A stretch of 64,000 nt of DNA from Primulina eburnea (taxonomy: Eukaryota > Streptophyta > Magnoliopsida > Lamiales > Gesneriaceae), in contig NW_027331414.1 of assembly GCF_022965805.1 (NCBI RefSeq), forward strand, positions 1 through 64,000, written 5' to 3'. A program made the position numbers and the translations under genes. Within the stretch, counting starts at the first letter, position 1; every line of letters begins with the position of its first letter. Of this stretch, positions 26,262 through 61,800 are shown one piece after another. The notes below the pieces were generated by a model. That model had not been told where the DNA came from, searched no databases, and saw only the letters and a list, made by a program, of their open reading frames with translations.

Positions 26262-28575
26262 ATAAGTATCCTTTGCCAAGGATTGATGATCTCTTCGACC
26301 AGTTGCAGGGTTCTTCAGTATATTCTAAGATTGATTTAGGATCCGGATATCATCAGTTAAGAGTTAGAGAGGCAGATGTGCCTAAGACTGCTTTTCGTAC
26401 CAAATATGGGCATTTTGAATTTTTGGTTATGCCTTTTGGGTTGACCAATGCACCTGCGGTATTTATGGATTTGATGAACCGTGTGTTTCAACGATATATA
26501 GATCAATTTGTTGTGATCTTCATTGATGATATTCTTATTTATTCAAAATCTGAATCTGAGCATTCCAAACACTTGAGAGATGTTTTTCAAATTTTGAGAA
26601 CTGAAAAGTTGTATGCTAAATTATCCAAATGCGAGTTTTGGTTGGATAGAGTGGTTTTTCTTGGACATGTGATTTCAAGTGCTGGTATATCAGTTGATCG
26701 GAGAAAAGTTGAGGCAGTAATCAATTGGTCTAGACCGACATCAGTTCCTGAGGTACGTAATTTTATGGGTTTGGCAGGATATTATCGCAGATTTATTGAA
26801 GGATCTTCACAGATTGCGAGGCCAATTACCCAGCTGACACAAAAGAATGCACAATTTATTTGGTCACAGGCATGTGAGGATACTTTTGTTGAACTTAAGC
26901 AGAGATTTACTAGTGCTCCAGTTCTGACTATTCCATCAGGTGTAGGAGGATTTACAGTGCACACTGATGCTTCACATCAAGGACTGGGTTGTGTATTAAT
27001 GCAGCATGGCCGTGTGGTTGCCTATGCTTCACGACAGTTGAAGCCACATGAATCTAAATACCCAGTGCCTGACTTGGAACTAGCAGCAGTGGTTTTTTCT
27101 CTAAATATTTGGCGTCACTACTTGTATGGTGAGAAATTTGAGATATTCACTGATCATAAGAGTTTGAAATACCTCTTTTCCCAAGCGGAGCTGAACATGA
27201 GACAGAGATGTTGGTTAGACTTTTTGAAAGACTATGATTGCGAAATAAAATATTATCCAGGAAATTCAAACGCAGCTGCTGATGCTTTGAGCAAAAAAGT
27301 ATGTAATATGTCCTTGATCACTAGCAGTGTATCTGATCTAGTAGAAGAATGTTGTCTTTATGGTTTGGATTTTGTGGAAAATACTCAACCTGTAAGAGTA
27401 TTTATGATTCAGGCAGAACCCGAGTTGTTTGTTAAAATTAAAGAGGCCCAAAGATTAGATCAAAGTATTCAGAAATCAGTTGAACTCGTCAGATCAGGAC
27501 ATCGATCAGAATTTTAGGTCAATAATGAGGGTATTTTGTTTGTGAATGATCGTATTGTAGTTCCTAATATTTCAAAGTTGAGGATACAGATTTTGCGTGA
27601 TGCTTATTGCAGTAAGTTCAGTGTACACCCTGGAAGTAAAAAGATGTACAATAATTTGAAGAAACAGTTTTTGTGGAAAAGAATGAAATCTGACATAGCA
27701 CAATTTGTATCTCGTTTTTTGAATTGTCAACAAGTGAAAGCAGAAAGGAAGCGACTAGGAGGTCTTTTGCATAGCCTTAAGGTTCCAGAATGGAAGTGAG
27801 ACCATATTACTATGTATTTTGTCACGAAGTTGCCGAGGTCGTCGAAAGGTTGCGATGCAATTTTGGTTATCGTTGACAAATTAACTATGTCTTCGTGTTT
27901 CATTCCTTATCAGATGACATATAGGCATTATCAGATGACCAGATTGTACATCAGAGAAGTTTTGAGATTGCATGGTGTGCCTAAGTCCATTGTATCGGAT
28001 CGTGATCCCAGATTTTCTTCTCATTTTTGGCAGAGTTTACAAGAGGCCCTTGGTACTCGTTTGCATTTGAGTACAACATATCACCCTCAGACAGACAGAC
28101 AGTCAGAACGTACTATTCAGACATTAGAGGATATGCTGAGAGCTGTAGTGACGGATTTTGGTATTGGTTGGCAGGATTCGTTACCACTTGTCGAGTTTTC
28201 TTATAACAATTGTTATCAAGTGAGCATTGAAATGTCACCATTTGAAGCACTATATGGCAGGAATTTCGATCTCCTCTGTATTGGGACAATTTATCTAAAG
28301 CACCAATTGTAGGACCTGATATGATAAGAGATATGACAGAGACGGTGAAATTGATTCGGAGTCGTATGCGAGCTGCTCAGGATAGGCAGGCTAAGTATGC
28401 GAACATCAGGAGACATCCGTTGATTTTTGAGAAAGGTGACATAGTTTTTTTGAAAATATCTCCTTTCTGTGGTACAGTTAGATTTGGAAAGAAAGGTAAA
28501 CTATCACCGAGATTCATAGGTCCGTATGAGATTTTGGAACGTGTTGGTGATTTGGCTTATAGATTAGCTCTTCCG
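26262..28575 (+). pseudogene. E1 pol middle: RT, RNase H, integrase (cut by E3)
   Basis: RT resumes in frame with the finger/palm segments [34 protein letters not shown] and the catalytic FIDDILIYS near 26520. RNase H follows with [13 protein letters not shown] near 26960, and then DHKSLKYLF. The integrase contains a CX2C-like zinc part near 27720 (LNCQQVKAE) and core motifs [12 protein letters not shown] and TTYHPQTD. There are nonsense codons at 27515 (TAG) and 27797 (TGA), and a frameshift near 28270 between the integrase core and its C-terminal part. E3 interrupts it after LALP, within the target duplication TTCCG (28571-28575). Confidence 0.92.
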
Positions 28576-29148
28576 TGATGAAACTTAAAATTAATAATTT
28601 ATTATATGTTAAAACATGTATTTTAAAATTTTAAGTTCCATTAAAATTATAAATTATGTTATTTTAGTATTGTTTGTTTATATTTAAATGTCTTACTAAA
28701 TTTGTTTTATTTTCAGGTTTTTTTACGTGTTGGTAAAATAATGATAACTCAAGCTAGAAAATTCAAATGGAGGTGACTCTAACATGGTTGGAATCCTTGA
28801 GAAGTTATCTACAACTTTGCAGAAGACATGATTGCCTAAAAAGCTCATTAAGATGATCAAATTGTGCAAAGATCAAAATGAGGACACATTTACTTTTACT
28901 ATGACCATCATTTAGTAAAAAATTCATAACTATTTCAATATTTATCCAAATGAGGTGAATCAAGTGGCCAAACTCATCTACACAAAATTCCCCACATGTT
29001 TGTGGCCTTAATCAGAGTCAAAGTGGTGAGAAAAGTCGTGGAACAAGGCATTGAAAGAAGGGACATGGAATTGGAGTTGAGGAGACAAAGAATACTATTA
29101 CAACTACATGGCATTAATAGAATTTTTGACCCTTTCTCTCATTTGGCC

Positions 29149-29156
29149 TATAAATA
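29149..29156 (+). promoter_or_regulatory. E3 LTR TATA box
   Basis: TATAAATA lies inside the small palindrome GGCCTATAAATAGAGGCC, a classic plant core promoter position. The same sequence is at 39363-39370 in the 3' LTR. Transcription would be expected to start about 30 bp downstream. Confidence 0.75.
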
Positions 29157-29573
29157 GAGGCCTTGTGCTAGCTTGAGAATCATTCTATCTCATTGTAAAA
29201 TATAGTGTGAGTGTGTATCAAAGTTCTAAGTTCCAATATATTTTCTTTCATTTTCTCAACTATGAGTGATATTTTAGTGTTGATTAAAAGTAAATTCATG
29301 GCAAGCTAAATCTATTATGTCAAGTTGAAGAGGATGCATTCTTGGTGAAGTAAGATTGTTTATATTTTGTATATTCTTTCTTTATTTCTTTTCATTTAGC
29401 TAACTTATTTTCATTGTAGGTATAAAAATGAATTATTTCTTGTTATCAATTTACATCAAAAGCTTGATACCATTGAAGTGGTTATATTGATTTGTTGTTT
29501 ATTTTTGATACAATAAATATTTCATCACTTATTATTATATATATAGATATATATATTTATATAATAATATCAT

Positions 29574-29850
29574 AATATTTCATTTAGACGATAGCGTGGC
29601 TCTGCCGGTTGTTTTAAATGAAATATTATGATTTAATACTAATATCTAACAATCTAACATTTACTTTATCGCAACTAACTTTTATTTTTCGCATCTAACT
29701 TTTACTTTCTCGCAACTAACTTTTACTTTTCCGCAACTAACATTTACTTTATCGCAACTAACTTTTACTTTACTGCAATTAACTTATTAAATCAATATAT
29801 TTCATTTAGGCAATAGCGTGGCTCTGCCGGTTGTTCTAAATGAAATATAA
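29574..29850 (+). repeat. E3 LTR tandem array with flanking hairpins
   Basis: Six 21-bp units of the type CTAACTTTTACTTTNTCGCAA occupy 29654-29778. They are flanked at 29574-29628 and about 29800-29850 by two copies of a hairpin: ATTTCATTTAG, a GTGGCTCTGCCGG loop, then an arm close to CTAAATGAAAT. The same arrangement is at about 39795-40075 in the 3' LTR, with the array at 39872-39996. Confidence 0.85.
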
Positions 29851-30230
29851 TGATTTAATCTAACATTTACTTTATGCAATTATTTATTTATATAGTCATA
29901 GGTACCATATATAAAATATCGGTTAATTCGGTACTTTCTATAGTGGAAACTATATTATATTATGTATGTGTTTAATTTTCTTGGAACTATTATTTATGGT
30001 TGTTTCTTTTGTTTTACTTTTAGTTAAACAATATTATATAAAACAAGAATAAATCCTCAAGCCTTGACAAAATTTATAATTTGTAAACTTCATTCTTGCA
30101 TTTGGTAATCTATAAATTAATAAATTTAAACTAAAAATAACCTCTCTGTGGATCGATCTCGTACTTACGAAATATATTACTTGCAGACAACCTACACTTG
30201 GGTGAATTATTATTTAAGTAGTAGCAAGTT

Positions 30231-30250
30231 TTTGGCGTCGTTGCCGGGGA
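30231..30250 (+). other. E3 primer binding site (tRNA-Asp)
   Basis: TGGCGTCGTTGCCGGGGA, shortly after the LTR end, is complementary to the 3' end of plant tRNA-Asp except for one C-to-T change. A tRNA-Asp primer is typical of Athila/Tat elements. A splice-donor-like AG/GTATAA follows at once, with GT at 30252-30253. Confidence 0.85.
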
Positions 30251-30315
30251 GGTATAAATTAAGTTTATATTTGTTATTTATGTTTTATTTATAAGTATTG
30301 CGTGTTTTTACTTGT

Positions 30316-30597
30316 ATGAGTGTTTGGAGTCGAAAAAAAAGTGGTAGACTTATTCGAGTATCTGAAAATAATTTAAATATGGATGATAATTCAAATAATC
30401 AAGATAATGATAATAATAACAATAATAATAATAATAATAATCAAGAACATGATCAATTAAGAACACTTAGGCACCATATGAACCCTATTAGAACTAGTGC
30501 CCCATCTTGTTTAGTTTTTCCTCCCGATGCATCTAATTTCAATTTTAAACCTCAAATTATTCAACTTTTACCAAATTTTCATGGCTTAAGATTCTGA
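30316..30597 (+). pseudogene. E3 gag N-terminal part, ended by a frameshift
   Basis: ATG at 30316 (MSVWSRKKSGR) opens the gag leader. It includes a poly-Asn run encoded by (AAT)n/(AAC)n at 30405-30443, then the conserved block RTLRHHMNPIRTSAPSC and LPNFHGL. A one-base length difference near 30590 throws the frame, giving a stop at 30595-30597, although the next codons in the neighbouring frame continue the family sequence and lead into 30665. Gag and gag-pol were therefore one continuous frame before this break. Confidence 0.85.
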
Positions 30598-33500
30598 AAA
30601 TCCATATTTACATCTAAGAGAATTTGAGGAAGTTTGTAACACTTATAATGATCAAAATTGTAGCATGGATATAGTTCGATTAAAGCTTTTCCCTTTTTCT
30701 TTAAAAGATAAAGCTAAAACATGGCTACAAAATTTAAGATCAAGTTCAATAAGATCATGGGAAGAAATGCAACAACAATTTCTCAAAAAGTTTTTCCCTT
30801 CCCATAGAACAAACTCTTTTAAAAGACAAATTACAACTTTTTCTCAAAAACAAGGAGAAACGTTTTATCAATGTTGGGATAGATATAAAGAATTACTTAA
30901 TACATACCCATATCATGGTTTTGAAACATGGAGAATAGTTTCTCACTTTTATGAAGGTTTAATACCTAAAGATAGGCAAATGATAGAATTCATGTGTAAT
31001 GGAACTTTTGAAGATAAAAACCTAAATGAAGCTATGGAATATTTGGATTCATTAGCAGAAAATGCTCAAAATTGGGATAATATAGGCACAATAGAACCAC
31101 CAACAACTAAAAACAATAATTCAACAAATGGGGGTGGTATCTATAATCTTAAAGATGATACAAATATTCAAGCTAAACTTGCATCTTTAGCAAGAAAAAT
31201 TGAGTCATTAGAAATGAAAAAGAGTGGTCAATTAAAAAGTATTCAAGAAATTGTTTGTCATATATGTGATACACATGATCATGCTACAAAAGATTGTCCA
31301 ACATTACCTTCATTTAAAGAATGTCTCCATAAACAAGAAAACTATGTTAACAATTATAAAAAACCAATACTAGATCCTTTTTCACCATTATATAATCCGG
31401 GATGGAAAAATCATCCTAATTTTAGTTGGATGAATGATAATAATGCACAACCGTCACAACAATATTTTCAAAATAACCAAAATCATCAAGGTTATATTCC
31501 TTATGTTACACCTCCAAGAAAAAACTTTGAAGTTGTAATTCATGCATTTATCCAAAAGCAAGAGTCTATCAATATTCAAAACAGTCAATCTATGAGTGAT
31601 TTGAAAGAAACTCTTGCAAAATTTGCATCTGCACTTAATATTCATGAAAAAAGAAAATTTCCATCTCAACCTCAACCTAATCCTAAAAATCAAAATCAAG
31701 AATTAAAAAATGAAAAAATTGATCAAATAAAATCTGTTATTACCCTTAGAAGTGGTAAAATAGTTAATGATCCATATAGTAATGAAAACAAGGATCATTT
31801 AAAATCAAAGAGTAAGGATGATAATCCTGATACTTTTGAGAATGATGATACCTTAAATTTTAAGAATAATATGGTGAATGATAAATCATCTGAAATAGTA
31901 AATAAGTCAAATAAACCTCCACCATTTCCTCATGCATTAACAAATCATAAAAAACAAAAAAGTGATTCTGATATCTATGAAGTTTTTAAACAAGTGAAGA
32001 TAAATATTCCATTATTAGATGCTATTAAACAAGTACCTTCTTATGCAAAATTTTTAAAAGACTTATGTACTGTGAAGAGAAAATTGCATGTGAAGAAAAA
32101 AGCATTCTTGGCTGAACAAGTAAGTTCTATTCTTCAAAATAATTCTAGTTTAAAATATAAAGATCCTGGTTGTCCAACAATTTCATGTATTATTGGAGAA
32201 AATAAAATGAAAAAAGCTTTGTTGGATTTGGGAGCAAGTGTGAATTTACTTCCTTATTCAGTTTATGAAAAACTTAATTTAGGAGAATTAAAACACACTT
32301 CTGTTACTCTTTTACTGGCGGATAGGTCAATTAAAATACCTAGAGGTATTGTAGAAGATGTGTTGGTTCAAGTTGATAAATTCATATATCCTGTAGATTT
32401 TATTGTTTTAGATACACAACCAATAGAAGTACATAATGAAATTCCAGTAATATTGGGACGACCATTTCTAGCAACTTCAAATGCTTTAATTAATTGTCGA
32501 AATGAAATAATGAAATTGTCTTTTGGAAATATGACTCTAGAACTTAATGTGTTTAATTTATGTAAACAACCAAGTATTAATGAAAATGAAAATGAAGATG
32601 ATAATGAAATTCAAACAATTGTGGAAGAAAATATACAAGAAGAAAACTTAAATCAACAATGTGAAGTTTTTTCAGTAGAAAGTTTGGAGTCTGAAAATAA
32701 TTTTAAAGAAGATGATAATACAAAACTTGAATTAAAAGCTTTACCAATAGAATTGAAATATGTATTTCTTGGTCAAAATAAAACATTTCCTGTTGTAATT
32801 TCTTCCACTCTTCTACCAAATCAAGAAGAAGATTTAATTCAATTACTTAAAAAATATAAAAATGCAATTGGATGGACTTTGAAAGATATAAAAGGTATGA
32901 ATCCTTTAATTTGTACACATAAAATTCACTTGGAAGAAAATGCTAAAACATATCAACAACCGCAAAGAAGGTTAAATCCACATATGAAAGAAGTTGTTAA
33001 GATTGAAGTATTAAAACTATTAGACGCTGGAATTATCTATCCAATCTCAGATAGTAAATGGATAAGTCCAACACAAGTAGTACCTAAAAAGTCATGCATC
33101 ACTGTTATAAAAAATGAAAAAGGAGAGTTATTACAAACTAGGATTCCATCTAGTTGGCGTATGTGTATTGATTATAGAAAATTAAATGATGCAACTAGAA
33201 AAGATCATTTCCCACTACCATTTTTAGATCAAATTTTAGAAAAAGTAGCAGGAAATTCTTATTATTGTTTTCTTGATGGGTATTCGGGGTATTATCAAAT
33301 ACCTATATCATTAGAAGATCAAGAAAAAACAACTTTCACTTGTCCTTTCGGAACTTTTGCATTTAAAAGAATGCCATTTGGTTTATGTAATGCTCCAGCT
33401 ACTTTTCAAAGATGCATGTTAAGTATTTTCAGTGATATGATTGAAGAATTTGTAGGAGTTTTTATGGATGATATAACTGTTTTTGGAAACTCATTTGAAA

Positions 33501-34486
33501 ATTGTCTTAAAAATCTAGAAAAAGTATTAAAAAGATGTGAAGAAAAAAATCTTGTTTTAAATTGGGAAAAATGTCATTATATGGTTAAATCTGGGATTGT
33601 TTTAGGACATGTGATATCTGAAAAAGGAATTGAAGTTGATAAAGCCAAATTTGATGTTATTTCTAATTTAACATCACCAAAAACAGTCAAAGAAGTTCGA
33701 TCATTTTTGGGTCATGCAGGATTTTATAGAAGGTTTATAAAAAATTTCAGCATAATATCTAAACCAATGTCAAATCTTTTAACAAAAGATACACAATTCG
33801 AATGGACTCAAAAATGTGAAAATGCTTTTAAAAAAATAATTAATCTTTTAATTACATCCCCTATTTTACAACCTCCAGATTGGTCTTTACCATTTGAATT
33901 AATGTGTGATGCAAGTGATTATGCTATAGGAGCTGTGTTAGGACAAAGAAAAGAAGGAAAACCTTATGCAATCTATTATGCTAGTAGAACCTTAAATAGT
34001 GCCCAAATAAATTATTCAACTACTGAAAAAGAATTACGTTCAGTAGTATTTGCATTAGATAAGTTTCGATCTTATTTAATTGGTTCTACTACTATTGTTT
34101 ACACCGATCATTCTGCCATAAAATATTTATCAAATAAACAAAATGCTAAGCCAAGATTAATACGGTGGATTTTATTGTTACAAGAATTTGATATTATAAT
34201 TAAAGATAAAAAAGGAAAAGAAAATGTTGTAGCCGATCATTTATCTAGAATAATGACTGAATCATCTCATAATGAAATACCAATAAATGAAAATTTTCCA
34301 GATGATCAGTTGTTTTATGCTACTATTATGCCATGGTTTGCTAACATTGTAAATTTTCTTGTGACAAATAAAATGCCTTCTCATTGGAATTCACAGGATA
34401 AGAATAAATTCTTGATAGAAGTTAAAAAATTTTATTGGGATGATCCTTACTTATTTAAGTATTGTCCTGACCAAATTTTTCGATGA
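30598..34486 (+). pseudogene. E3 gag-pol: gag, protease, RT, RNase H (ended by TGA)
   Basis: From the in-frame ATG at 30665 this is 1273 codons. In order (residues from 30665): gag core (about 1-140, LFPFSLKDKAKTWL, FLKKFFPSHRT), a CCHC knuckle CHICDTHDHATKDC near 198-211, an Asn/Lys-rich linker, and protease with DLGASVNLLP near 521. RT follows with MCIDYRKLND, DGYSGYYQI, MPFGLCNAPATF and catalytic FMDD near 932, then RNase H with CDASDYAIGAVL near 1079 and YTDHSAIKYL. The frame ends in a TGA (34484-34486) where family members continue, and integrase follows directly in the same frame. The codons are strongly AT-rich. Confidence 0.9.
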
Positions 34487-35617
34487 TGCATACCCGACAA
34501 TGAAGTAAGTAATGTTATTAAATTTTTTCATTCTGAAGCATGTGGAGGTCATTTTTCATCCAATAAAACAGCTACAAAAATCTTACAATGTGGATTTTAT
34601 TGGCCGTCTTTATTCAAAGATACGCATTTATTTTGCAAATCTTGTGAAAATTGTCAGAAGATGGGATCAATTTCAAAACGAAACATGATGCCTTTAAATC
34701 CAATCATAATTATTGAAATATTTGATAGTTGGGGGATAGATTTTATGGGTCCATTTCCATTATCTTTTGGATATACGTACATTTTAGTCGCTGTTGATTA
34801 TGTTTCAAAATGGATTGAAACGATTGCATGTAGAACTAATGATCATAAAGTTGTTATAAAATTTTTAAAAGAAAATATTTTTAGTCGATTTGGAATTCCT
34901 AGGGCAATAATTAGTGATGGGGGAAGTCATTTTATAAATAAATCATTTTCTTCTTTATTAAGAAAATATGGCATTACACATAAAGTTTCTACCCCATATC
35001 ATCCTCAAAGTAATGGTCAAGTTGAACTTGCAAATAGAGAAATAAAACAAATTTTATAAAAAACAGTTAATCCAAATCGAAAAGATTGGTCTTTAAGATT
35101 AACTGATGCATTATGGGCATATAGAACTGCATTCAAAACATCATTAGGGATGTCATCATATAGGTTAGTTTTTGGTAAGCATTGGCATTTACCAGTTGAA
35201 CTTGAACATAAAGCTTATTGGGCAATTAAAGCATTTAATATTAATTTAGATGATGCATCTAAATTAAGAAAATTGCAAATAAATGAACTTGAAGAATTAA
35301 GAAATGATGCATATGAAAATTCAAAGATTTATAAAGATAAAACTAAAGTCTTTCATGATAAAAATATTATGAGAAAGTCATTTGAAATTGGACAAAAAGT
35401 TTTGCTTTATAATTCTCGTTTGCATTTATTTCCAGGTAAACTAAGATCGAGGTGGTCAGGACCATTTATAGTCAAATTTGTTTATCCTCATGGTGCTGTT
35501 GATATTGAAAATCCTAAAAATAATGACGTGTTTAAAGTTAATGGGCAAAGACTTAAGCCTTTTATAGAAAATGAAATTCTTAATGATGAGTTTATGCCTT
35601 TATATGATCCACAATAG
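34487..35617 (+). pseudogene. E3 integrase, with one further nonsense codon
   Basis: This continues the pol frame. The HHCC zinc region ([15 protein letters not shown], then CKSCENCQK) lies at 34520-34660. The catalytic core follows ([36 protein letters not shown]), and the C-terminal part ([35 protein letters not shown]) runs to the stop at 35617. A TAA at 35057-35059 splits it. Integrase joins element DNA to the chromosome. There is no chromodomain, as expected outside the chromoviruses. A splice-acceptor-like TTTTGTTTTGCAG ends at 35646, just after pol. Confidence 0.9.
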
Positions 35618-35733
35618 TTTTTTGATATTTTCATTTTGTTTTGCAGATTCTAGTTCATTTCCCGGTTAAGTGGCGGATAACGGTACTCCGTGACTGTTTA
35701 AGTCGGTTTCTTCAGTTTTCCCAAAATAATTGA

Positions 35734-35817
<84 letters not shown>
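35734..35817 (+). repeat. (AAT)n microsatellite directly before an ATG
   Basis: About 28 AAT units run without interruption into the ATG of the next ORF. They are in the same frame and preceded by a TGA at 35731, so the repeat acts as leader sequence, or as a poly-Asn extension only if a non-ATG start were used. Confidence 0.9.
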
Positions 35818-35818
<1 letters not shown>

Positions 35819-36348
35819 TGGATGCGTGTATTATGAATCTTCGTAAATATTTTGCTTGTTTACCTGATAATGCGTTGAAAAAAATTTATAAAGCTAGATG
35901 TGAGCGGCTAAGGTTGATGATGTCATATGGTATACCGGATGATATCCGTTTGATAATTGAAGCAAAAGTCCGATTGGTTGGGAAAGCAAGTGAATTAATA
36001 ATAAGACATATGCCAGGATTTGGTAAAAGCACATATGCCAAAAAGCGAAGAGCTAAACGTATAGGTGGATGTTATAAATGTGCAAGGTGGACTTGTAATG
36101 GGAAATGCAAAAATGTTGGAATGACATCAATGAATAGAGAAGATAAAATTTTATTCATTAAAAATGGTCTGAGTAAAGAGCCTTTGGATAATTTTCTAGA
36201 GGTTCTTGATACGCATTCTAGTGGGTACGTGCAAAATGAACTTCTTAAACTATGGTGGCAATTTCAACAGGAGGAATATCAATATGGACGGTGGAATCAG
36301 CCTTACAAAGATCCTACTGTAGTAACGCATGTCTATTTAGATAAGTAA
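35818..36348 (+). CDS. Basic zinc-finger protein, similar in layout to flexivirus cysteine-rich proteins
   Basis: An intact 176-codon ORF with an ATG start and no retrotransposon domain. The first 65 residues look helical and basic. Residues 73-81 form an Arg/Lys-rich stretch (YAKKRRAKR), a likely nuclear or nucleolar signal and RNA-binding patch. It is followed at once by a four-Cys finger C85-X2-C88-X4-C93-X3-C97, then VGMTSMNREDKILFIKNGL. A basic patch abutting a Cys finger, followed by a short segment ending in FI.NG, is the layout of the cysteine-rich nucleic-acid-binding proteins of carla-like flexiviruses (Pfam Viral_NABP). I judge this by pattern, not by alignment. The C-terminal 60 residues (LLKLWWQFQQEEYQYGRW) match nothing I know. 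It lies 200 bp after pol and 303 bp before LOG, all on one strand. Confidence 0.7.
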
Positions 36349-36651
36349 ATATATATATACAATCTCGTCTTGGGAATCTGACGTTAAAAGACCCTGTTTG
36401 CCAATTTATAAGAAAATTGGATGGGAAGCATATCCTCGACTCATAGAAGGCGTTGAAGCCGTTACTGAACGTAAAATCAGAGGAAGATGTGAGCCACAAT
36501 CACAACTACGCTGTATATATTTGTTTTAATTTTGTCATTTTTATTTTCTTTTAATAATAATAATTTCCTGTTCAAATATTGACTTTTGGCATGTTACGCT
36601 TATAAATTCATATGCTGTGATCTAACAATTACAGAAAACATATTTCTCAAC
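36349..36651 (+). other. Spacer between zinc-finger ORF and LOG, with a relic frame
   Basis: A short (TA)n lies at 36349-36359. From about 36346 to 36529 an open frame without ATG reads KKIGWEAYPRLIEGVEAV..., protein-like in composition and one base out of phase with the preceding ORF. It may be a broken C-terminal extension or a third cargo remnant. A T-rich stretch and an acceptor-like TCTAACAATTACAG ending at 36634 precede the LOG start codon. Confidence 0.4.
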
Positions 36652-37281
36652 ATGTCAACGTCCACGGTAAGTAAAATCAAAAATATTTGTGTATTTTGTG
36701 GATCTAGTGCAGGAAAAGATTCAATTTATGAAGAAGTAGCAGAAAAGCTTGGAATAGCACTTGCTAAAAACAAGATTCATTTGGTGTATGGTGGTGGTGA
36801 AGTTGGCCTCATGGGAAAAGTTGCAAAAGCTGCGCATGCAGGTGGAAGTGAAGTCTTAGGCATTATTCCGATTACCTTAGCCAATCTTACAGGACCAACA
36901 ATAGGAGAAGAAATGAAAGTGGACAACATGTATGAAAGAATTACTCAAATGATTGAACATTCTGATGCTTTCATTGCTTTACCAGGAGGTTTCGGTACTT
37001 TGGAAGAAATATTTCATACTGTTTGTTGGGCACAATTAAATATCCCCAATAAGCCAATTGGTTTGTTAAATGTTAACAATTATTATGATAAATTGTTATC
37101 GTTTCTTGATGATGTTGTGGAACAGGGATTTATTTCATTAGCTTCGCGAAGGATGTTAGTTTCTGCTACAAGTGAAGGTGAACTTATTGATTTACTGCAA
37201 GGATTTAGTCATGAACCAGATCCATTCTTATCTCAACTTAATTGGCCAACATCCAAGAGTAAGAAAAGAAAATTCGTGTGA
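36652..37281 (+). CDS. LOG: LOG: cytokinin riboside 5'-monophosphate phosphoribohydrolase (captured, intronless)
   Basis: Intact 209-aa ORF from ATG (MSTSTVSKIKNICVFCGSS). LOG enzymes cleave the ribose phosphate from cytokinin nucleotides and release the active free base in one step, in cytosol and nucleus. Diagnostic features are the FCGSS start (15-19), YGGGEVGLMG (46-55; plant LOGs usually have S-I where E-V stands), IPITL (72-76), EMKVDNMYERI (87-97), and the family signature PGGFGTLEE (111-119) with its catalytic Glu. WAQLNIPNKPIGLLNV and GFIS follow. Length matches plant LOGs (about 200-230 aa). In the usual M-H-x-R-K motif, Arg96 is kept, but His is Tyr94 and Lys is Ile97. The tail ends in basic SKSKKRKFV. 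Plant LOG genes normally have several introns and this copy has none, pointing to capture via RNA. It lies inside E3, after pol, in sense. An in-frame upstream extension lacks an ATG. Confidence 0.93.
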   Translation: MSTSTVSKIKNICVFCGSSAGKDSIYEEVAEKLGIALAKNKIHLVYGGGEVGLMGKVAKAAHAGGSEVLGIIPITLANLTGPTIGEEMKVDNMYERITQMIEHSDAFIALPGGFGTLEEIFHTVCWAQLNIPNKPIGLLNVNNYYDKLLSFLDDVVEQGFISLASRRMLVSATSEGELIDLLQGFSHEPDPFLSQLNWPTSKSKKRKFV

Positions 37282-38084
37282 TGCTAAACTTGCGATTCAA
37301 CGGTATGTTTTTAATGTTTTTTTTTTCAAGGTATGAATAATTTCTTCTTCTTCTTCTTATTCTCTTCTTAGTTTTTTTTTTTATATAAAAATAAAAATAT
37401 GTAGTAATAATAATAATACTTTTTAGTTCAATGTCGAGTAAGGTGTCAGTAAAATGCACCTGAGACGCATTAGTTAATAATTATCGGAAAATCACAATAC
37501 ACTAGATTTTAATATTCATTATATTCAAATTACAGACTACAAGAAAAATTAGTTTTCATATGTACCAATTTATATACATATATATTTTGATCAATTAATA
37601 TAAAATATATAATAGATGTGTTTATTTATTTACATATATGTATATATTTGTGTGTGTGTTTTCAAATAAAATAATTTCTAAAATTTTTATAAGAATATAG
37701 TTAAAAGATATGATTTGTATGATTGTTAACATGTATAATTGAAAGAATTTTTTGTAAAAGTATAATATATACTCACACATCTTTTGTGAGTAAGTGGTGA
37801 GAAATGAGAAAACAATTAATAAACTTTTATTGATTATTAAAAAATGGTTAATTACAAGAATATAATTCCCCTAAAAAAAATATTTATTGAAAAAAAAGAA
37901 AAGATGTAAATAAATAACGGACTGCAAAATATTTTATTCATTGTAATATTTGTTTTTTTTCAAGATTTGATTGATGTACTATCAATGTGTTCTTAATAAA
38001 AAAAAACAAAAAAACAAAAAAAACAAACAAACAAAAAGATTTGTTTGTGCTAGATAAGTTTCAAAGATAGTCGAATGTATCTGT

Positions 38085-38172
<88 letters not shown>

Positions 38173-38778
38173 TGGTAAAATGTTTGGATAAAAAAAAAAG
38201 TTTATGTTATTGTAAAATTTTGCAGTCACGTTATAAAAAAAAAATAAAAAAAAAGATAAAAAAAGAAAAAAAAAGAAAAGAGAGGGGATTTTATTCTTTG
38301 TAAATTTTCCTATTTTGTTTTCAATATTAGTTTATTTAATTGTCTGCTTTAATACTTAGCCTTTTTCAATGAGAGTTAATATTCATTCCAACTCCATGAG
38401 TGAAAACTAGCTATTCATAAAATATTTTGACCTGAAAGAATATATGGAGTTGAGGCTTTTACAAAAATATTCTTGATATTGTACATGTTATGGTGGGTGG
38501 CGTGAATTATCTTTTTGACTATATTATTATAAATAAATTTAGAAATTTATTAATCATATATATTGTTATTTTATATATTATGTGAAAATAAGAATAAAAA
38601 CACATCAAATTATATATTATTATATTAAATGAAAAGTATATATATATATATATATATAAATCGGTATATGAGTTTGTTTTTAAAATGAATATGTTTGTAT
38701 TTGAATATATAAAAGGAATAAAGAATCTAGGTTGTGATTTTCCGATAAATTTTATTACTAAGGGACTAGTAATAAGAT
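37282..38778 (+). other. E3 3' non-coding region, AT-rich with microsatellites
   Basis: No gene is seen between LOG and the 3' LTR. It holds a TTC run near 37341-37370, A-rich runs near 37870-38030 and 38236-38285, and a long (TA)n at about 38091-38169. A GAGAGGGGATT purine patch at 38280-38290 could be a central polypurine tract, but this is uncertain. Confidence 0.6.
38091..38169. repeat. (TA)n microsatellite in E3
   Basis: About 78 bp of nearly pure TA repeat, with one TTTA interruption. Confidence 0.9.
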
Positions 38779-38790
38779 AGTGTGGGGGTG
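38779..38790 (+). other. E3 polypurine tract
   Basis: AGTGTGGGGGTG directly precedes the 3' LTR start TGATGAAAC. It is a short purine-rich primer for plus-strand synthesis, interrupted by T. Confidence 0.7.
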
Positions 38791-40455
38791 TGATGAAACT
38801 TAAAATTAATAATTTATTATATGTTAAAACCTGTATTTTAAAATTTTAAGTTTCACTAAAATTATAAATTATGTTATTTTAGTATTGTTTGTTTATATTT
38901 AAATGTCTTACTAAATTTGTTTTATTTTCAGGTTTTTTTACGTGTTGGTAAAATAATGATAACTCAAGCTAGAAAATTCAAACGGAGGTGACTCTAACAT
39001 GGTTGGAATCCTTGAGAAGTTATCTACAACTTTGCAGAAGACATGATTGCCTAAAAAGCTCATTAAGATGATCAAATTGTGCAAAGATCAAAATGAGGAC
39101 ACATTTACTTTTATTATGACCATCATTTAGTAAAAAATTCATAACTATTTCAATATTTATCCAAATGAGGTGAATCAAGTGGCCAAACTCATCTACACAA
39201 AATTCCCCACATGTTTGTGGCCTTAATCAGAGTCAAAGTGGTGAGAAAAGTCGTGGAACAAGGCATTGAAAGAAGGGACATGGAATTGGAGTTGAGGAGA
39301 CAAAGAATACTATTACAACTACATGGCATTAATAGAATTTTGACCCTTTCTCTCATTTGGCCTATAAATAGAGGCCTTGTGCTAGCTTGAGAATCATTCT
39401 ATCTCATTGTAAAATATAGTGTGAGTGTGTATCAAAGTTCTAAGTTCCAATATATTTTCTTTCATTTTCTCAACTATGAGTGATATTTTAGTGTTGATTA
39501 AAAGTAAATTCATGGCAAGCTAAATCTATTATGTCAAGGTGAAGAGGATGCATTCTTGGTGAAGTAAGATTGTTTATATTTTGTATATTCTTTCTTTATT
39601 TCTTTTCATTTAGCTAACTTATTTTCATTGTAGGTATAAAAATGAATTATTTCTTTTTATCAATTTACATCAAAAGCTTGATACCATTGAAGTGGTTATA
39701 TTGATTTGTTGTTTATTTTTGATACAATAAATATTTCATCACTTATTATTATATATATATATAGATATATATATTTATATAATAATATCATAATATTTCA
39801 TTTAGACGATAGCGTGGCTCTGCCGGTTGTTTTAAATGAAATATTATGATTTAATACTAATATCTAACAATCTAACATTTACTTTATCGCAACTAACTTT
39901 TATTTTTCGCATCTAACTTTTTCTTTCTCGCAACTAACTTTTACTTTTCCGCAACTAACATTTACTTTATCGCAACTAACTTTTACTTTACTGCAATTAA
40001 CTTATTAAATCAATATATTTCATTTAGGCAATAGCGTGGCTCTGCCGGTTGTTCTAAATGAAATATAATGATTTAATCTAACATTTACTTTATGCAATTA
40101 TTTATTTATATAGTTATAATATAATCATAGGTACCATATATAAAATATCGGTTAATTCGATATTTTCTATAGTGGGAACTATATTATATTATGTATGTGT
40201 TTAATTTTCTTGGAACTATTATTTATGGTTGTTTCTTTTGTTTTACTTTTAGTTAAACAATATTATATAAAACAAGAATAAATCCTCAAGCCTTGACAAA
40301 ATTTATAATTTGTAAACTTCATTCTTGCATTTGGTAATCTATAAATTAATAAATTTAAACTAAAAATAACCTCTCTGTGGATCGATCTCGTACTTACGAA
40401 ATATATTACTTGCAGACAACCTACACTTGGGCGAATTATTATTTAAGTAGTAGCA
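38791..40455 (+). repeat. E3 3' LTR
   Basis: 1665 bp, differing from the 5' LTR by about 13 substitutions, a T-run indel, a 4-bp TA indel near 39760 and an insertion near 40115. It ends AGTAGTAGCA and is followed by the duplication TTCCG and E1 integrase sequence. Confidence 0.93.
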
Positions 40456-40736
40456 TTCCGCCTGCATTATCAAGTGTTCATGATGTTTTTCATGTGTCTA
40501 TGTTAAGGAAATATCATCTGGATCCTTCTCATGTACTTCCACCTGACGAGGTTGAGTTAGATCAGACTTTGAGCTATATTGAGAGACAGATTCAAATTTT
40601 CGACAGAAAAGATAAGCAAATCAGAAATAAATTGATACCGTTAATTAAATTACAGTGGGATAGACATGGTGTCGAGGAGGCAACTTGGGAATTAGAAGAC
40701 AAAATGAGACAAAAATATCCAGAGTTATTCAAATGA
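40456..40736 (+). pseudogene. E1 integrase end and chromodomain
   Basis: Reading resumes with PALSSVHDVFHVSMLRKYH, the conserved segment at the end of chromovirus integrase. A chromodomain follows at about 40600-40730 (LIKLQWDRHGVEEATWELEDKM as its core), ending KYPELFK before TGA. Chromodomains tether integration to marked chromatin. The domain looks complete, but it is cut off from the rest of pol by E3. Confidence 0.9.
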
Positions 40737-54975: not shown

Positions 54976-57675
54976 CTATTCTTCTTTATTTCCTCCTTGA
55001 TCTCCTCTATCTGCCCTATCTTCCCCCTTTTTGGCATCAGCGGCAACCACATGAGCAAAGAGGTCATTCAATCGGCCTGAGATATTGTGAATGCCATCGG
55101 TTAGCATTTCCATATACGGGGTCTGAGAAGAAATGCGATTATCCAGTGTAGCGATAGATTGATTTTGAGAATCAATCTTGGCATCCAAAAGTTCCACAGA
55201 AGTAGATAGAGATCGAAAGTGATCATCATGCTCAGTGAGTCGAGTAAGAATATTATTTTGATCACTGATGAGGGTGGCGTAAAATCTCGATATAGCTTGT
55301 CTGAAAATGGAAGTTTCAGCATACATCTTGTCTGTGGTCTCCTTAGTGAGATAGAGGTGTTTACCCATTGTTTCTCGGAAGGATTTAGCACCAGTGAATT
55401 CCGCAAGGTTTTCACAAGACATACGCTTCACTAACTCAGAGATGTTGTTGAGATCGTTTTGCAGACATAGAATTTGATGTTCGAGATTGAATGCATCGAA
55501 TTCCGGGGAGGGAGTGCGTGCAACCATGCGTTGTTTGATTTCAGAGACATTCAACGCAGTAGAAATGGGAGCAGCATCCAACAAAGCAGTAGTAGGAGCA
55601 GGGTCTGCTGTGCTTTCTGCTGGAGTTGCAGAAAAAAGAGGAGCAACAGCAACCAGAGGAGTAAATTCTGCAGTAGAAACGGCGAAGACAGAGGCCAACA
55701 CTTCTTCCGGTGGTACAGAAACATCCTGTGAGACTGAGGGACCTTCAGTAGAAGGAGCAAGCTGCTGATTCAGAAGAGCTGTCATCTCGACTTGATGAGC
55801 AGCAGAGAATACCTCTAAATTCGGTAGCAAAGAGGGAGCATCTGAATCTGCCAATTGTTGCCCTGGAGTAGGAAAGTCAGAAGGTGGCAACGAAGTAGCC
55901 GGTGCTGCTTCTTGAGTGGTTGAGACTGAAGGTATAATAGATTCAATGACTTCTTCAACCGAAGCCAATTCATGCACGGACAGCAGTGATGATGTCGGGA
56001 TGTGTCGAGTCGGAGATGCAGGAGTACTGAGAGCAGAAGCCTTTGGGGAGACTGTAGTCCTTTCCTCAACTGACTGTTGAAATACTGGAAAAAGACCGAC
56101 ATGATAAACAGTGGGCTCTCCAAAGCCTTGTTCTTGAGCAAGAAGTTTCTCATTCATCTGCTTCAATCTGTCAGAGAGAATCATAATAACATTTTGATCC
56201 TGAACAGCGTTAGGAACAGCAGGACCAAAATTGGATTGAAGAATTTGCAGAACTGATTCTAACTTCTGACATTTCAGCTGAGCGAAGACAAAATCCCTTC
56301 TTCGCAAGGCCTCGATGATATTTTCTGTTTTGGCCAGCTGAAAAACCTTCTTTTCTGCATTCATCATTTTGGCAAAATTTCCTTTTGTCTTGAAGTAACT
56401 CAAGGAATGGAATAGTCTCACATGATGCCATTCATCAAAAAAATTCATGTCATCATTAACAGAGGTCTCAATCTCTGCGAGATGAAGATCAACGCCAGTA
56501 GCCACAGTGGTTTTGTGACTAATAACAGGTGGTTCTTCCACCATTTTTCCCTTGCCTTTGTCAGAAGATGACACAGGCACGATTGGTCGGAAAGCAGAAG
56601 ACCCGCTTGCTGGTTCCCGAAAAACAATTCCAGATGTTGGCTTAAAAACTGGAGCAGAAGGAGGTGCTGAAACGGACGTAGTAGTAAGTGCAGTTGAAGA
56701 AGCAATGGTCCTAGCAGAAGGGACCGCTTCTGGAAAGACCTGTCGAATAGGTACTTTCTCAATCTCAGACAGTGCTGCTGTCTTCTTAATCTTAAGAATT
56801 GTGCGAGATTTCTTCTTAGCTGGGGTTGGCACTGCTGTTTGAACACCAGCAGCAGACTCTTCTGTTGCTGTGTCATCTGAATCCAACGAAATGATCAATC
56901 GTTTCTTTGATATTTTCTTCTGAGGTTTTGGACCCTCAAAAGCAGTGTCCCCAATTTCCTTCTTCATTGCCACAAATTCTGCCACTGTTGGCTTAGGCCT
57001 TAAAGCCAACACATTCGCTGCATCAATCATGGTGATGAGAGTCGCATCTAGATCACTGGTGGATGCAAAGCCAGCATCCTTGAGCAAAACGCTAATTTGA
57101 ACCGCGAAACCAGAACTTCGCCTGACAACCATGTCCTTCATGATTCTGAAAATAAAATGACTCCAATCCACCTTAATCCCCTTGGTGATGGCAGTCATAA
57201 CTTGAACCTTTTCCTTAGTCAACTTGTCGAATGTTCCAGCCTTGATCAAAATAGCTTTGGCCACAATATCGGCCAGAATCTGATACTCGATTTTTAGCAA
57301 TTTCTTTTGACAGGAAGGAGACAGTTCTTCTCCAGAGGCTGAGAAAGAACTAAGAGCAATAGACATATCCAGCTTAGAAATGTCAGAGAGTTCAGAAACA
57401 CCTGCAAGTGGAAGGAGGAAGACTGCTCCTAGATGAGCGGCATCAATGGAGATAGAAGCATCTCCTTGAGTATAAACAATCCTGCCTTCATGTACTGTGG
57501 CTTTAGCATAAAATTCCAGTAAAGCATTTTTGTAGATGACTGCTGGTGCTTCCAGGAATTTGCGGAGTCCCGATTGCTCAAGATCCTGAAACATTTTCAA
57601 GAGATTCTCATCCTTGATGTTGAGAACCGAAGCAAAGTTAACTTGATACGCGTTAAGAGTGTAAGCGTTAGCCAT
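54976..57675 (-). CDS. E5 3' ORF (SIRE-type, env-position protein), 899 aa
   Basis: An uninterrupted ORF with an ATG start (MANAYTLNAYQVNF). Residues about 1-250 form a globular domain typical of proteins next to plant SIRE-like elements (LEAPAVIYKNALLEFYAKATV). Then come a basic patch (KKISKKRLI), a long Ala/Pro/Ser/Thr-rich disordered middle, and a C-terminal helical region with coiled-coil character (about 730-885). No clear transmembrane span or signal peptide is seen, so calling it envelope is not justified. The end is altered by a roughly 40-bp tandem duplication (54945-55020) that shifts the frame and truncates the C-terminus. The neighbouring frame continues to 54858. A TATATATTC motif about 115 bp upstream (57789-57797) could give it its own promoter. 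Confidence 0.75.
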   Translation of the reverse strand: MANAYTLNAYQVNFASVLNIKDENLLKMFQDLEQSGLRKFLEAPAVIYKNALLEFYAKATVHEGRIVYTQGDASISIDAAHLGAVFLLPLAGVSELSDISKLDMSIALSSFSASGEELSPSCQKKLLKIEYQILADIVAKAILIKAGTFDKLTKEKVQVMTAITKGIKVDWSHFIFRIMKDMVVRRSSGFAVQISVLLKDAGFASTSDLDATLITMIDAANVLALRPKPTVAEFVAMKKEIGDTAFEGPKPQKKISKKRLIISLDSDDTATEESAAGVQTAVPTPAKKKSRTILKIKKTAALSEIEKVPIRQVFPEAVPSARTIASSTALTTTSVSAPPSAPVFKPTSGIVFREPASGSSAFRPIVPVSSSDKGKGKMVEEPPVISHKTTVATGVDLHLAEIETSVNDDMNFFDEWHHVRLFHSLSYFKTKGNFAKMMNAEKKVFQLAKTENIIEALRRRDFVFAQLKCQKLESVLQILQSNFGPAVPNAVQDQNVIMILSDRLKQMNEKLLAQEQGFGEPTVYHVGLFPVFQQSVEERTTVSPKASALSTPASPTRHIPTSSLLSVHELASVEEVIESIIPSVSTTQEAAPATSLPPSDFPTPGQQLADSDAPSLLPNLEVFSAAHQVEMTALLNQQLAPSTEGPSVSQDVSVPPEEVLASVFAVSTAEFTPLVAVAPLFSATPAESTADPAPTTALLDAAPISTALNVSEIKQRMVARTPSPEFDAFNLEHQILCLQNDLNNISELVKRMSCENLAEFTGAKSFRETMGKHLYLTKETTDKMYAETSIFRQAISRFYATLISDQNNILTRLTEHDDHFRSLSTSVELLDAKIDSQNQSIATLDNRISSQTPYMEMLTDGIHNISGRLNDLFAHVVAADAKKGEDRADRGDQGGNKEE

Positions 57676-58230
57676 TCCTGTATGCAGATGAGATCAGAAA
57701 AATTTGCAGTAGTTAGTGAAAGTAGAGAAAGCAGTAGCTGAATAGCGATAGATATGAAACACTAAAGGTAAAAAGGTTAAATCTAAAAGAATATATACAG
57801 CCGTCAGATAAACATAAAGACACGTGTCAGTATGTTCTTGGTTGAGTGTTCGAAAATTTTGCAGAAACTGTCAGATATTCAAATAATTTGAAAATTTTGA
57901 AAATGAGCGGGTTGTCCAGTTGGTTATTGAAAATCAGAAGGGGATTTGTCATTTTATGATAACGTCTGCTGGAAGTTTCAGGGTGCTGAGAATATTTCAG
58001 CACTTTGACAAAAAAACAGCAGACTCGAAGTTTTATCGAAAAGACAAACATCCTATCTGTTTTCTGAAAAGACGTCAAACTCTCAATCTGACTGAGAGAC
58101 TGTTCCCCCTCGGTAACTGCAATTAATAAGTGGTCATAATTGCGATAAGTGACGCTTGGCCATCTTTCAATCTGAGCCGTTGAAACTGAACAGTCGCAAT
58201 CTTGCGATTCACAAGAGTCTTTGTTCCCTC

Positions 58231-58238
58231 TATAAATA
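58231..58238 (+). promoter_or_regulatory. Antisense TATA box in E5
   Basis: TATAAATA preceded by CCCTC and followed about 40 bp later by ATG codons is a good plant core-promoter match, opposite to the element's own direction. Confidence 0.5.
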
Positions 58239-58277
58239 CCTGCACATCTTGAACGAAGCTAAACAGATGAATGTAAA

Positions 58278-58535
58278 ATGAAAACTCAAGTAAAGAAAGA
58301 GTTAGGGTTTGATTCAGGAGTCGAAGCAAAGCTGTTCAGAGAGGAGTTTGAAGATGTCATTCTTCACGTAATGATCCTTGAAATACACTCCTGGATTTCC
58401 AGTATCCACCACCAGACGGATTTGATGCTTTCATTAGTATGGATATGTTGCATCCATTTCTTCCAGAAGCATGCTTATGCAATTAGAGAGTGCTGGTGGA
58501 TTGATGATGATGAAATCCCCTCTGATGCCCTGTAA
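58278..58535 (+). CDS. Possible antisense ORF in E5, unrecognised
   Basis: An 85-codon ORF with an ATG start (MKTQVKKELGFDSG). It is 40 bp downstream of a TATAAATA box and about 220 bp upstream of an AATAAA signal (58754-58759), so promoter, ORF and 3' end make a compact unit. Two short upstream ATGs (58267, 58271) would weaken translation. Residues 15-30 and the C-terminal WWIDDDEIPSDAL look protein-like. The middle reads more protein-like in another frame (PPPDGFDAFISMDML), suggesting a once longer protein broken by frameshifts. I do not recognise a family. It may instead be a chance frame opposite the retrotransposon. Confidence 0.35.
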   Translation: MKTQVKKELGFDSGVEAKLFREEFEDVILHVMILEIHSWISSIHHQTDLMLSLVWICCIHFFQKHAYAIRECWWIDDDEIPSDAL

Positions 58536-58753
58536 GGCATCTAAAAAATAGATTAGTTCTAACAAGACCCAAGCTTGTTAGATTCTTTCTAGGCCTTTCT
58601 TTGCTTAGAAAGTCTTGTTCGTGTTGAAGTTCTTATTAAGCAAATTACAGAGAACTTCTGAAGTCAAAAGCTAAAGATAACGCTACTGGATAAATAGCAT
58701 TTAAGATCTACTGTTTTTACTTTTGCATGATGTAATGTACTGGAATGGTTCCT

Positions 58754-58759
58754 AATAAA
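58754..58759 (+). terminator. Antisense polyadenylation signal
   Basis: AATAAA preceded by TGTAATGTACTGG forms a reasonable plant 3'-end signal for a plus-strand transcript from 58231. Confidence 0.4.
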
Positions 58760-58880
58760 ATTTCATTTTCAGCACTTGACTATACTCTACTGCTTTTCTT
58801 CAAGTTCAGTACGATGAATAAGCGAATAATAAAAGTTAACCAAGATAATCAGAAAGTAATTAAGTTAAATCTATTAAACC

Positions 58881-61800
58881 AAGAGAGTTACGAAAGTAAG
58901 AAAACTTATTCTCTGGTAAGGGTTTCGTGAAGATATCTGTTGTTTGTTGATCAGTAGAGACATATTCCAGACGAATGTTCTTCTTCTGGACGTGATGTCT
59001 GATGTCTATGTGCTTCGTTCTGGAATGAAGTACTGGATTTGAGTGATTGCAATTGCACTGGTATTGTCACAGAATATAGGTGATTCGGAGGCTTGAATCC
59101 CATAATCTCTCAACTGTTGTTGAATCCACAGTATCTGAGAGCAGCAGCTTCCAGCAGCCAGATATTCTGCTTCTGCAGTAGATGTGGCTATGGAAGTCTG
59201 TTTCTTGCTAAACCAGGATATCAGCCTATCACCAAGAAATTGACAAAAACCACTTGTGCTTTTTCGATCTAGTTTGCAACCTGCATAATCAGCATCTGAA
59301 TATCCAATAAGATTTAACGATGAGTCATTGGGATACCATAAACCAACATTTTGAGTTCCTTTTAAGTACTTCAAAATACGTTTAGCAGCAATATAATGAG
59401 ATTGTTTGGGGTTAGATTGAAATCTAGCACAAATGCAAACAGCAAACATGATATCTGGTCTACTGGCAGTTAAATATAATAATGAACCAATAAGACCTCG
59501 ATACTGAGTTACCTCTACTGGAATACCACTTTCATCTTTATCAAGCTTAATAGATGAGCTCATTGGAGTAGAAGCAGCAGAACATGCTTCCATTCCAAAT
59601 TTTTTCAGAAGCTCCTTGGTATATTTGGCTTGATTTATAAAGATTCCAGTTTCTGATTGCTTGATTTGTAGTCCTAGGAAGAATGTTAATTCTCCCATCA
59701 TACTCATCTCAAATTTATCCTGCATCAATTTTCCAAACTTTGCACATAATTTGGGGTTAGTTGACCCAAAAATGATATCATCAACATAGATCTGTACTAA
59801 AAGAGTATGCTTATTCTTGACTAAAGTAAACAAGGTTTTATCTACTTCTCCAATGGTAAAATCATGATCAATAAGAAACTGTGATAGAGTGTCATACCAA
59901 GCTCTAGGTGCTTGTTTTAGACTATATAGTGCTTTGTGTAATTTAAATACATGATGAGGAGAGAAATGATCGATAAAACCTGGAGGTTGTTCCACGTAAA
60001 CTTCTTCTTGTAAAAGACCATTGAGAAATGCACTTTTCACATCCATTTGATATACTTTGAAATTTTTGAAAGCGGCAAAGGCTAAGAATATTCTGATTGC
60101 TTCGAGCCTTGCTACTGGTGCATAAGTCTCATCAAAGTCTATGCCTTCTTCTTGTCTGAAGCCTTGAGCCACCAATCTAGCTTTTTTCCTGACCACTATG
60201 ACTTCTTCATTAAGTTTGTTTCTAAATACCCACCGAGTTCCAATGACAGCTTGGTGAGATGGTCTAGGTACTAGAAACCAAACATCATTACGCTTGAATT
60301 GATTCAGCTCTTCTTGCATGGCTTCAATCCAACTAGGATCCAGAAGAGCTTCTTCAATTTTCTTTGGTTCATCCTGAGATATAAAAGCAGCATGCATATA
60401 TTCATTAAACATTTGCCTTCTGGTTCTTAAAGGCGCTGCTGGATTACCAATAACCAATGATGGAGGATGGGACTTTCTCCAGATAAACGGATTTAACTGA
60501 GCATCTTCCTGATTTGATACATTAAGATTGTTTTCCACAAAATCAGTAGTAGGCTCTAGAACATCTTCTGCTGGTATTGGTAGATCCAAAGTCTGTACTT
60601 CTGGTTCCACTAATGGAATGTCTGGTTCTGGATTTTGAAGATCCTTGGTATTAGCTTCTACATCATCTTCGCTGTCAATTTCCAGATGAATCCTGTCTAA
60701 CCTGTTACTTAAATCAGATATGTTAGAGATTTCAGCACTGCTGTCTTCATCGAAGACAACATGAATCGATTCTTCAACATTAAGAGTTCTATTGTTGAAG
60801 ATTCTAAAAGCTCTGCTTACAGCAGAGTATCCAAGGAATATCCCAGCATCTGATTTAGAATCAAATGCAGTCAAATGATTTTTGCCATTATTTAGTACAA
60901 ACCATTTGCAACCAAATACATGAAAGTAAGATACGTTAGGCTTCTTCCCTTTCCATATTTCATACGGAGTCTGGTTGTGTCTTTTGTTGACCATCGATCT
61001 GTTTTGCGTGTAACAAGCAGTATTGATAGCTTCAGCCCAGAAGCGCTGAGAGATGTCTGCATCTGCTAGCATTGTTCTAGCTGCTTCTTTTAGAGTTCTA
61101 TTTCTCCTCTCAGCTACTCCGTTTTGTTGAGGAGTTCTGGCAGCTGAATATTCATGATGAATTCCCTGTTCATTCAAATATAGCTCAAGATACTTGTTAG
61201 TGAATTCAGTGCCCCGATCACTTCTGATTTTAATGATGGTGGTAGATTTTTCATTTTGAATCCTTTTCAGAAGCTTGATCAAGAGACTACAGGTCTGATC
61301 TTTTCCTGCGAGAAAGATTACCCAAGTAAATCTAGAAAAATCATCAATAACAACAAGAGTATACTTCATTCCCCCTAAGCTCATGATGGGAATTGGGCCA
61401 AATAGATCCATATGCAGTAGTTCCAGACATCTTGAAGTTGATTTGCTATCTTTGGTCTTGAAGCTGGATCTTATCTGTTTCCCAAGCTGACAAGCAGAAC
61501 AAACATGATTTTTAACAAAATTAATGTCAGGTAATCCATCAACCATATTCTGCTTTTTGAGATAGTTGATTGACTTGAAATTCAGATGATTCAATTTCTT
61601 GTGCCATAGCCAATGTTTATTGCTAAGAGAAGCAACTAGGCATGTAGGAGTATTGACATGATTTGAGTTCCAGGAGACTCTGTAAGTGTTGCCTTCTCTC
61701 TTTCCGGTTAACACAGTAGTTTCAGCAGAATCTCTAATTATGCATGAATGCTTCTGGAAACCTACAGAATAACCATTATCACACAGTTGACTAATGCTGA

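Follow-up and report, generated by a model that had tools for sequence, protein, structure and literature searches.

In Primulina eburnea, two families of LTR retrotransposons carry a fixed-order accessory module of two genes, the first encoding a carlavirus-type nucleic-acid-binding protein (NABP) and the second a LOG, the enzyme type that in plants acts as a cytokinin riboside 5'-monophosphate phosphoribohydrolase. One copy, E3, lies within a window of 64,000 nucleotides, the whole stretch of DNA analysed. We prefer the reading that LOG occupies the second place in a conserved NABP-LOG module whose products alter the host cell to the element's favour, and we give it even credence.

Structure of the E3 element

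E3 is a Ty3/gypsy LTR retrotransposon of about 11.9 kb (28576-40455) flanked by a 5-bp target duplication, with the following features:

28571-28575, no strand: target-site duplication, left copy TTCCG (border sequence)
28576-30226, plus: 5' LTR, TG...CA, 98.3% identical to the 3' LTR (BLAST)
30233-30250, plus: primer binding site TGGCGTCGTTGCCGGGGA (sequence), which may be of the tRNA-Asp type
30665-34486, plus: gag, protease, RT and RNase H, 1273 aa in a single frame (ORF and domain matches)
34487-35617, plus: integrase part of pol, frame broken by stops in the E3 copy (its first piece matches rve and Integrase_H2C2)
35658-35735, plus: conserved leader block, 3' of a 3'-splice-site-like sequence ending at 35646
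35818-36348, plus: gene for the carlavirus-type nucleic-acid-binding (cysteine-rich) protein NABP, 176 aa (PF05515, PF01623)
36513-36634, plus: candidate intron 5' of LOG, suggested by splice-like signals
36652-37281, plus: LOG gene, 209 aa (ORF, Pfam, structure comparison)
38780-38790, plus: candidate PPT, a purine-rich stretch preceding the 3' LTR (sequence)
38791-40455, plus: 3' LTR (border comparison)
40456-40460, no strand: target-site duplication, right copy TTCCG (border sequence)

A chance origin of these borders and of the target duplication is excluded, and rejoining the flanks of E3 yields an open frame of another element, the insertion target. Both the coordinates and the TTCCG repeat bear out the preliminary description, which had placed a LOG gene in sense between pol and the 3' LTR, inside LTRs and a perfect duplication. 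The LTRs differ by 12 mismatches over 1650 aligned sites plus 16 gap columns (K2P 0.0073), giving an insertion age of 0.28-0.91 million years for yearly substitution rates per site of 1.3e-8 and 4e-9.

Gag, RT, RNase H and integrase were all matched, protease weakly and below the cutoff, and two in-frame stops interrupt the integrase part of pol. The domain order RT, RNase H, integrase, together with the LTRs and the 5-bp duplication, is that of Ty3/gypsy elements. We provisionally call E3 Athila-type, because a Pfam scan of the pol pieces matched no archaeal-type second RNase H and because E3 presumably resembles elements of the Athila clade. Such a second RNase H is described as marking the Tat clade (PMC6317226); Athila-type elements whose 3' ORF is env-like are reported, like E3, to lack it and to carry sense extra ORFs between pol and the 3' LTR (PMC6317226, PMC7264820). 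Unlike them, E3 has no match to ORF-1 (PF03078) and instead holds two ORFs with known relatives.

The window also contains a Ty1/copia element at 54976-63994 (minus strand), whose downstream sense ORF of 899 aa, positioned like the extra ORFs of SIRE-type elements, has a weak Transposase_32 match below the cutoff.

The LOG gene and its predicted product

The LOG ORF runs from ATG to stop in one uninterrupted frame. Its product matches Pfam PF03641 (Lysine_decarbox) at E 1.2e-35 and scores 123 bits where the cutoff is 27, and the solved structure closest to it by sequence is Arabidopsis At2g37210 (E 1.1e-60). An AlphaFold2 model (mean pLDDT 84) has the LOG fold, with TM scores, normalised by target, of 0.94 against Arabidopsis 2a33 and 0.93 against the AMP-bound bacterial LOG 5zbk.

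We compared a retro-like set of 121 LOGs, the best matches to protein P0001, with a host set of 120, the best matches to two Arabidopsis LOGs; in these sets, which are not random samples and each consist of related rows, the catalytic Glu, E119, is present in 121/121 and R96 in 116/121 retro-like LOGs, and the whole PGGxGTxxE motif occurs in 114/121 retro-like and 114/120 host LOGs. The residue aligned with E119 differs between 5zbj and 5zbk, a difference that we read as a catalytic mutant. The predicted fold, the motif and the catalytic residues are common to retro-LOGs and plant LOGs, from which the former differ by their uninterrupted frame, their separate clade and, in most relatives, a basic/LxLxL tail. 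Cytokinin activation by retro-LOGs is likely. The E3 protein itself carries a change at a position on which 120/120 host LOGs agree and which 118/121 relatives keep, and this copy may therefore be impaired; since that near-invariant position has changed, the term 'intact' in the preliminary description holds for the open frame of 209 aa and not beyond it.

The enzyme could instead serve nucleotide housekeeping by acting on other nucleotide monophosphates, for example removing nucleotides, modified or used in signalling, that set off defence or hold back reverse transcription. LOG folds do bind AMP, as in 5zbk, and LOG-type genes occur in phages too, but with plant LOGs as the closest solved relatives by sequence and nothing indicating another substrate, we hold such a role to be improbable.

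A carlavirus-type gene beside LOG

The preliminary description mentioned neither the second accessory ORF of E3, between pol and LOG, nor the basic/LxLxL tail of the LOG relatives. The product of this ORF matches both Viral_NABP (PF05515; 31.0 bits, cutoff 23, E 3.2e-7) and Carla_C4 (PF01623; 27.8 bits, cutoff 20.9, E 2.5e-6). A protein search retained 169 relatives from 189 candidates; among the best 120 of these 169, all match PF01623, 102 have a cysteine finger of the form C-X2-C-X4-C-X3-C and 108 a basic cluster ahead of the finger. In an alignment of 19 members, one of them the window protein, each of the two Pfam models is matched by 18.

The E3-type proteins resemble the carlavirus NABP/CRP in their above-cutoff matches and in the succession of basic cluster and cysteine finger. 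They differ in being encoded by a retrotransposon, in a longer N-terminal part and in finger spacing, that of Potato virus H being C-X2-C-X9-C-X4-C (PMC3689765). Suppression of RNA silencing is reported for several viral proteins of the NABP/CRP kind, and the p12 protein of Chrysanthemum virus B is described as a transcription factor that induces hyperplasia (PMC12172455, PMC3689765). An AlphaFold model of the E3 NABP was unusable (pLDDT 55). The C-terminus of NABP was replaced in the E3 family: past the stop codon, at 36351-36443, another frame still encodes RLGNLTLKDPVCQFIRKLDGKHILDS, which in most relatives is the C-terminus inside the ORF.

Copies and gene pairing in the Primulina eburnea genome

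In the Primulina eburnea genome (812 Mb, 1224 contigs), the E3 LOG query gave 1384 candidates, of which 150 were scored and the loci counted by eye. Eighty belong to the E3 family, family 1, at 82-100% identity, 57 of them without and 23 with in-frame stops, and 70 to family 2, at 68% identity and all without a stop; with many near-identical loci, stop-free among those scored, family 2 has probably undergone a recent burst. An Arabidopsis LOG protein (P0243) used as query gave 1241 candidates, and the 150 scored were all single-block matches at 51-53% identity, 148 without a stop; host LOG exons were not recognised among these 150.

From each family 20 loci, taken across the whole list and with two stop-bearing copies among them, were fetched with their surroundings. 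NABP lies upstream of LOG in all 40 (in pieces in some), the C-terminal part of integrase in 39 and the conserved leader in 38, and the gap between the NABP and LOG matches is 286-310 nt in the 18 measurable family 1 loci and 255-274 nt in 17 family 2 loci. Conversely, LOG sequence follows downstream of every one of the 60 best NABP loci: in 53 a LOG match falls within about 1 kb (lists matched by eye), and fetching the other seven revealed LOG in each, in pieces in six and shifted by about 3.9 kb in the seventh. Because the two genes are paired in all 40 LOG loci and in the 60 best NABP loci, we conclude that NABP and LOG travel together in this genome. The preliminary description had asked whether LOG sits at the same place in other copies of E3, and the 79 further family loci scored, with the uniform NABP-LOG order of those fetched, answer that it does.

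Occurrence in other plants

Among 240 proteins examined, seven are gene models that fuse parts of elements of this lineage. NABP and LOG are joined in two models from Orobanche gracilis (P0143, P0159) and one from Citrus (P0221), pol and NABP in one from Orobanche minor (P0219), and LOG and gag-pol in one from Xanthoceras (P0004); the remaining two (P0006, P0009) are, like P0002, Primulina eburnea proteins and therefore not independent evidence. In two of the Orobanche models the LOG part has a degraded look. Plants such as Xanthoceras, Reevesia and Diplodiscus have close LOG relatives that form clusters of up to 39 members, all of which presumably reside in elements as well. Linkage read from same-sized source contigs (P0003/P0123, P0110/P0132) is suggestive only; P0017/P0166 match in size too but cannot hold both genes.

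A further copy lies on contig DAIEQH010000041.1 (L030), which is assigned to a Candidatus Nomurabacteria MAG but is plant retrotransposon DNA, a contamination. It holds integrase and an intact NABP, with no LOG in the 983 nt to the contig end.

The preliminary description had named as a danger an assembly error fusing a host LOG to the element. The 79 further family 1 loci in the Primulina genome exclude such a join, and with the same arrangement in every fetched LOG locus, fused element/LOG models in other plants and no observation in its favour, we regard its probability as vanishingly small.

Purifying selection on LOG and NABP

Calculated as pooled Nei-Gojobori ratios, in which the pairs lack independence because they have copies in common and dS above 1 is imprecise, dN/dS between the two families is 0.215 for LOG (dN 0.255, dS 1.188; 420 pairs), 0.232 for NABP (270 pairs) and 0.121 for the C-terminal part of integrase (288 pairs). 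All 41 LOG rows entered this calculation, along with 18/21 and 15/20 NABP rows and 18/21 and 16/20 integrase rows, short or out-of-phase matches having been dropped. A codon bootstrap of the window LOG against that of L059, a family 2 locus, done for this single pair, gave a dN/dS of 0.129-0.314, and none of 2000 replicates exceeded 0.402. Between E3 and L030, dN/dS is 0.315 for NABP and 0.162 for the integrase part. The between-family values for LOG and NABP show purifying selection on both, as judged from the coding sequence, and the LOG value is far from the ratio near 1 that would have counted against the preliminary description. Within families the LOG ratios are higher, 0.582 and 0.456, as expected from decay of copies after insertion. 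Across 36 divergent LOG relatives, 30 positions are unchanged over 9.1 substitutions per site, a count biased toward conservation by protein databases that hold mainly open frames.

These results bear on the possibility that LOG is a captured passenger carried without benefit. Stops in 23 of the 80 scored family 1 loci (by eye), and in 2/21 and 2/20 analysed copies, are what such a passenger might accumulate, but a between-family ratio well under 1, 70 stop-free loci out of 70 scored in family 2 and the invariant positions in the 36-row alignment make this very improbable.

The conserved leader and splice-like signals

Two sequences resemble 3' splice sites. The one upstream of NABP, with its end at 35646, is strong: a simple score devised for this analysis puts it second among 431 AGs. 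The other, weaker (rank 49 by the same score), ends at 36634, which leaves 17 nt to the LOG ATG, and the GT at 36513 is its possible partner. Downstream of the first signal, a non-coding leader of about 78 nt (35658-35735 in the window, 1665-1741 in L030, and in L039-L078) is almost unchanged in both families and in L030; synonymous sites differ by about 60% between the families while the leader stays nearly identical. The leader RNA folds no better than shuffles, and an Rfam search gave no credible match (a single bacterial match below the cutoff). We infer from the splice-like signals that NABP and LOG may be made from spliced messages, as has been reported for the env-like ORF of Bagy2 (PMC7264820).

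Origin of the retro-LOGs and their C-terminal tail

A maximum-likelihood tree was built from 36 retro-like, 27 host and two bacterial LOGs, after filters for length and completeness had left 113 of the 121 retro-like rows and a similarity filter 36 of these, and after the host rows had likewise gone from 120 to 102 to 27. The retro-like LOGs form one group (99/96), and so do the host LOGs (99/96). AU tests, with LOG8-type and LOG1/3-type as the only host classes, rejected placement of the retro-LOGs with neither the former (p 0.178) nor the latter (p 0.163). The retro-LOGs would thus have a single origin within the sampled LOGs, and a branching point inside the host LOGs is compatible with the AU tests. 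A recent capture from the Primulina host is not supported, the retro-LOGs being a clade apart from the 27 sampled host LOGs; capture through RNA, as the preliminary description suggested, would fit the intronless frame.

In the two comparison sets described above, neither of them a random sample, LxLxL occurs within the last 30 residues of 95/121 retro-like and 0/120 host LOGs, and a basic cluster within the last 25 residues of 107/121 and 1/120, respectively. The E3 tail keeps KKRK and lacks LxLxL, and thus has no EAR motif; LxLxL is absent also from the second Primulina family (4 of 20 tails inspected) and from the Xanthoceras branch.

LxLxL is the EAR motif, which binds TOPLESS-type co-repressors. 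The LOG fold may be a scaffold, with the basic cluster directing the protein to the nucleus, LxLxL recruiting co-repressors to host or element promoters, and catalysis secondary. The skewed distribution of LxLxL argues for such an adaptor, as does a tail that fits the pattern in 30 of the 36 divergent rows while the residues between the leucines vary, in rows picked by pattern so that the leucine counts are partly circular. Against it, both Primulina families and the Xanthoceras branch do without LxLxL, although purifying selection acts on the LOGs of Primulina, and the catalytic residues are kept; we consider an adaptor role unlikely.

Proposed host manipulation by an accessory module

If instead the two gene products favour the element by altering the host cell, NABP and LOG would be translated from spliced messages and would both shift the cell in the element's favour. 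NABP might, like its viral relatives, weaken RNA silencing or influence the transcription of host genes; LOG, probably located in the nucleus, would convert the nucleotide precursor to active cytokinin, and the cytokinin released could favour division and survival of the cells that transcribe and transmit the element. Several observations speak against this: the broken integrase and deviant LOG position of E3, the decay within families, the copy L030 without LOG, the degraded LOG parts in Orobanche and an NABP finger spacing unlike that of the viral protein.

The preliminary description knew of no LOG-bearing retrotransposon, a claim that does not stand: a YgdH (LOG) domain is in print for Citrus Ty3/gypsy consensus sequences and, with a relaxed filter, for Populus (PMC9289625, which credits Steinbauerova et al. 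2011), as an extra ORF like that of E3 in a setting where extra ORFs of plant gypsy elements are mostly without known conserved domains. These elements and E3 are very likely of the same lineage, because the Citrus model P0221 combines NABP and LOG. The passages on YgdH there amount to a line in a domain survey and mention neither a partner gene nor a tail, a test of selection or the number of copies (PMC9289625). The gypsy elements of Phalaenopsis described there, with a conserved extra ORF for an AlkB RNA demethylase, an enzyme also found in flexiviruses, are comparable to E3 in their extra enzyme gene; they differ in enzyme and target, in having one extra domain and in being Ogre-like and 25 kb long (PMC9289625). 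The literature searched, which covered few subscription papers and may thus have missed an earlier mention, yielded no description of the NABP-LOG pair or of the LOG tail. With LOG in a gypsy element already known, what is new is its carlavirus-type partner, together with the tail.

The module genes have relatives of tested activity, a fixed order, a recurrence in Citrus and Orobanche and a history of purifying selection, and therefore two questions become directly testable: whether transposons steer plant hormones and silencing, and whether a suppressor of positive-strand RNA viruses and a retrotransposon gene share an origin. More speculatively, a retrotransposon lineage of rosids and asterids may carry a host-manipulation kit, made up of a silencing counter-protein shared with viruses and a nuclear LOG that raises cytokinin and in most branches recruits co-repressors, with gene exchange with positive-strand RNA viruses behind it. 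We advance this tentatively, thinking it likelier to fail than to hold; if true, it would make the element a hormone-steering mobile element. Some plant gene models named 'LOG3-like' or 'LOGL10' may be transposon genes.

LOG-type and NABP-type sequences in viruses and phages

Viral contigs contained no LOG relative in a single-protein scan, and neither NABP nor the leader pattern was found in them. A LOG alignment scan of the viral contigs (IMG/VR) detected 29 loci (L001-L029) at 27-37% identity. LOG-family genes were also present in 24 of 50,697 phage records, from phages of Enterococcus, Acinetobacter, Staphylococcus and Listeria.
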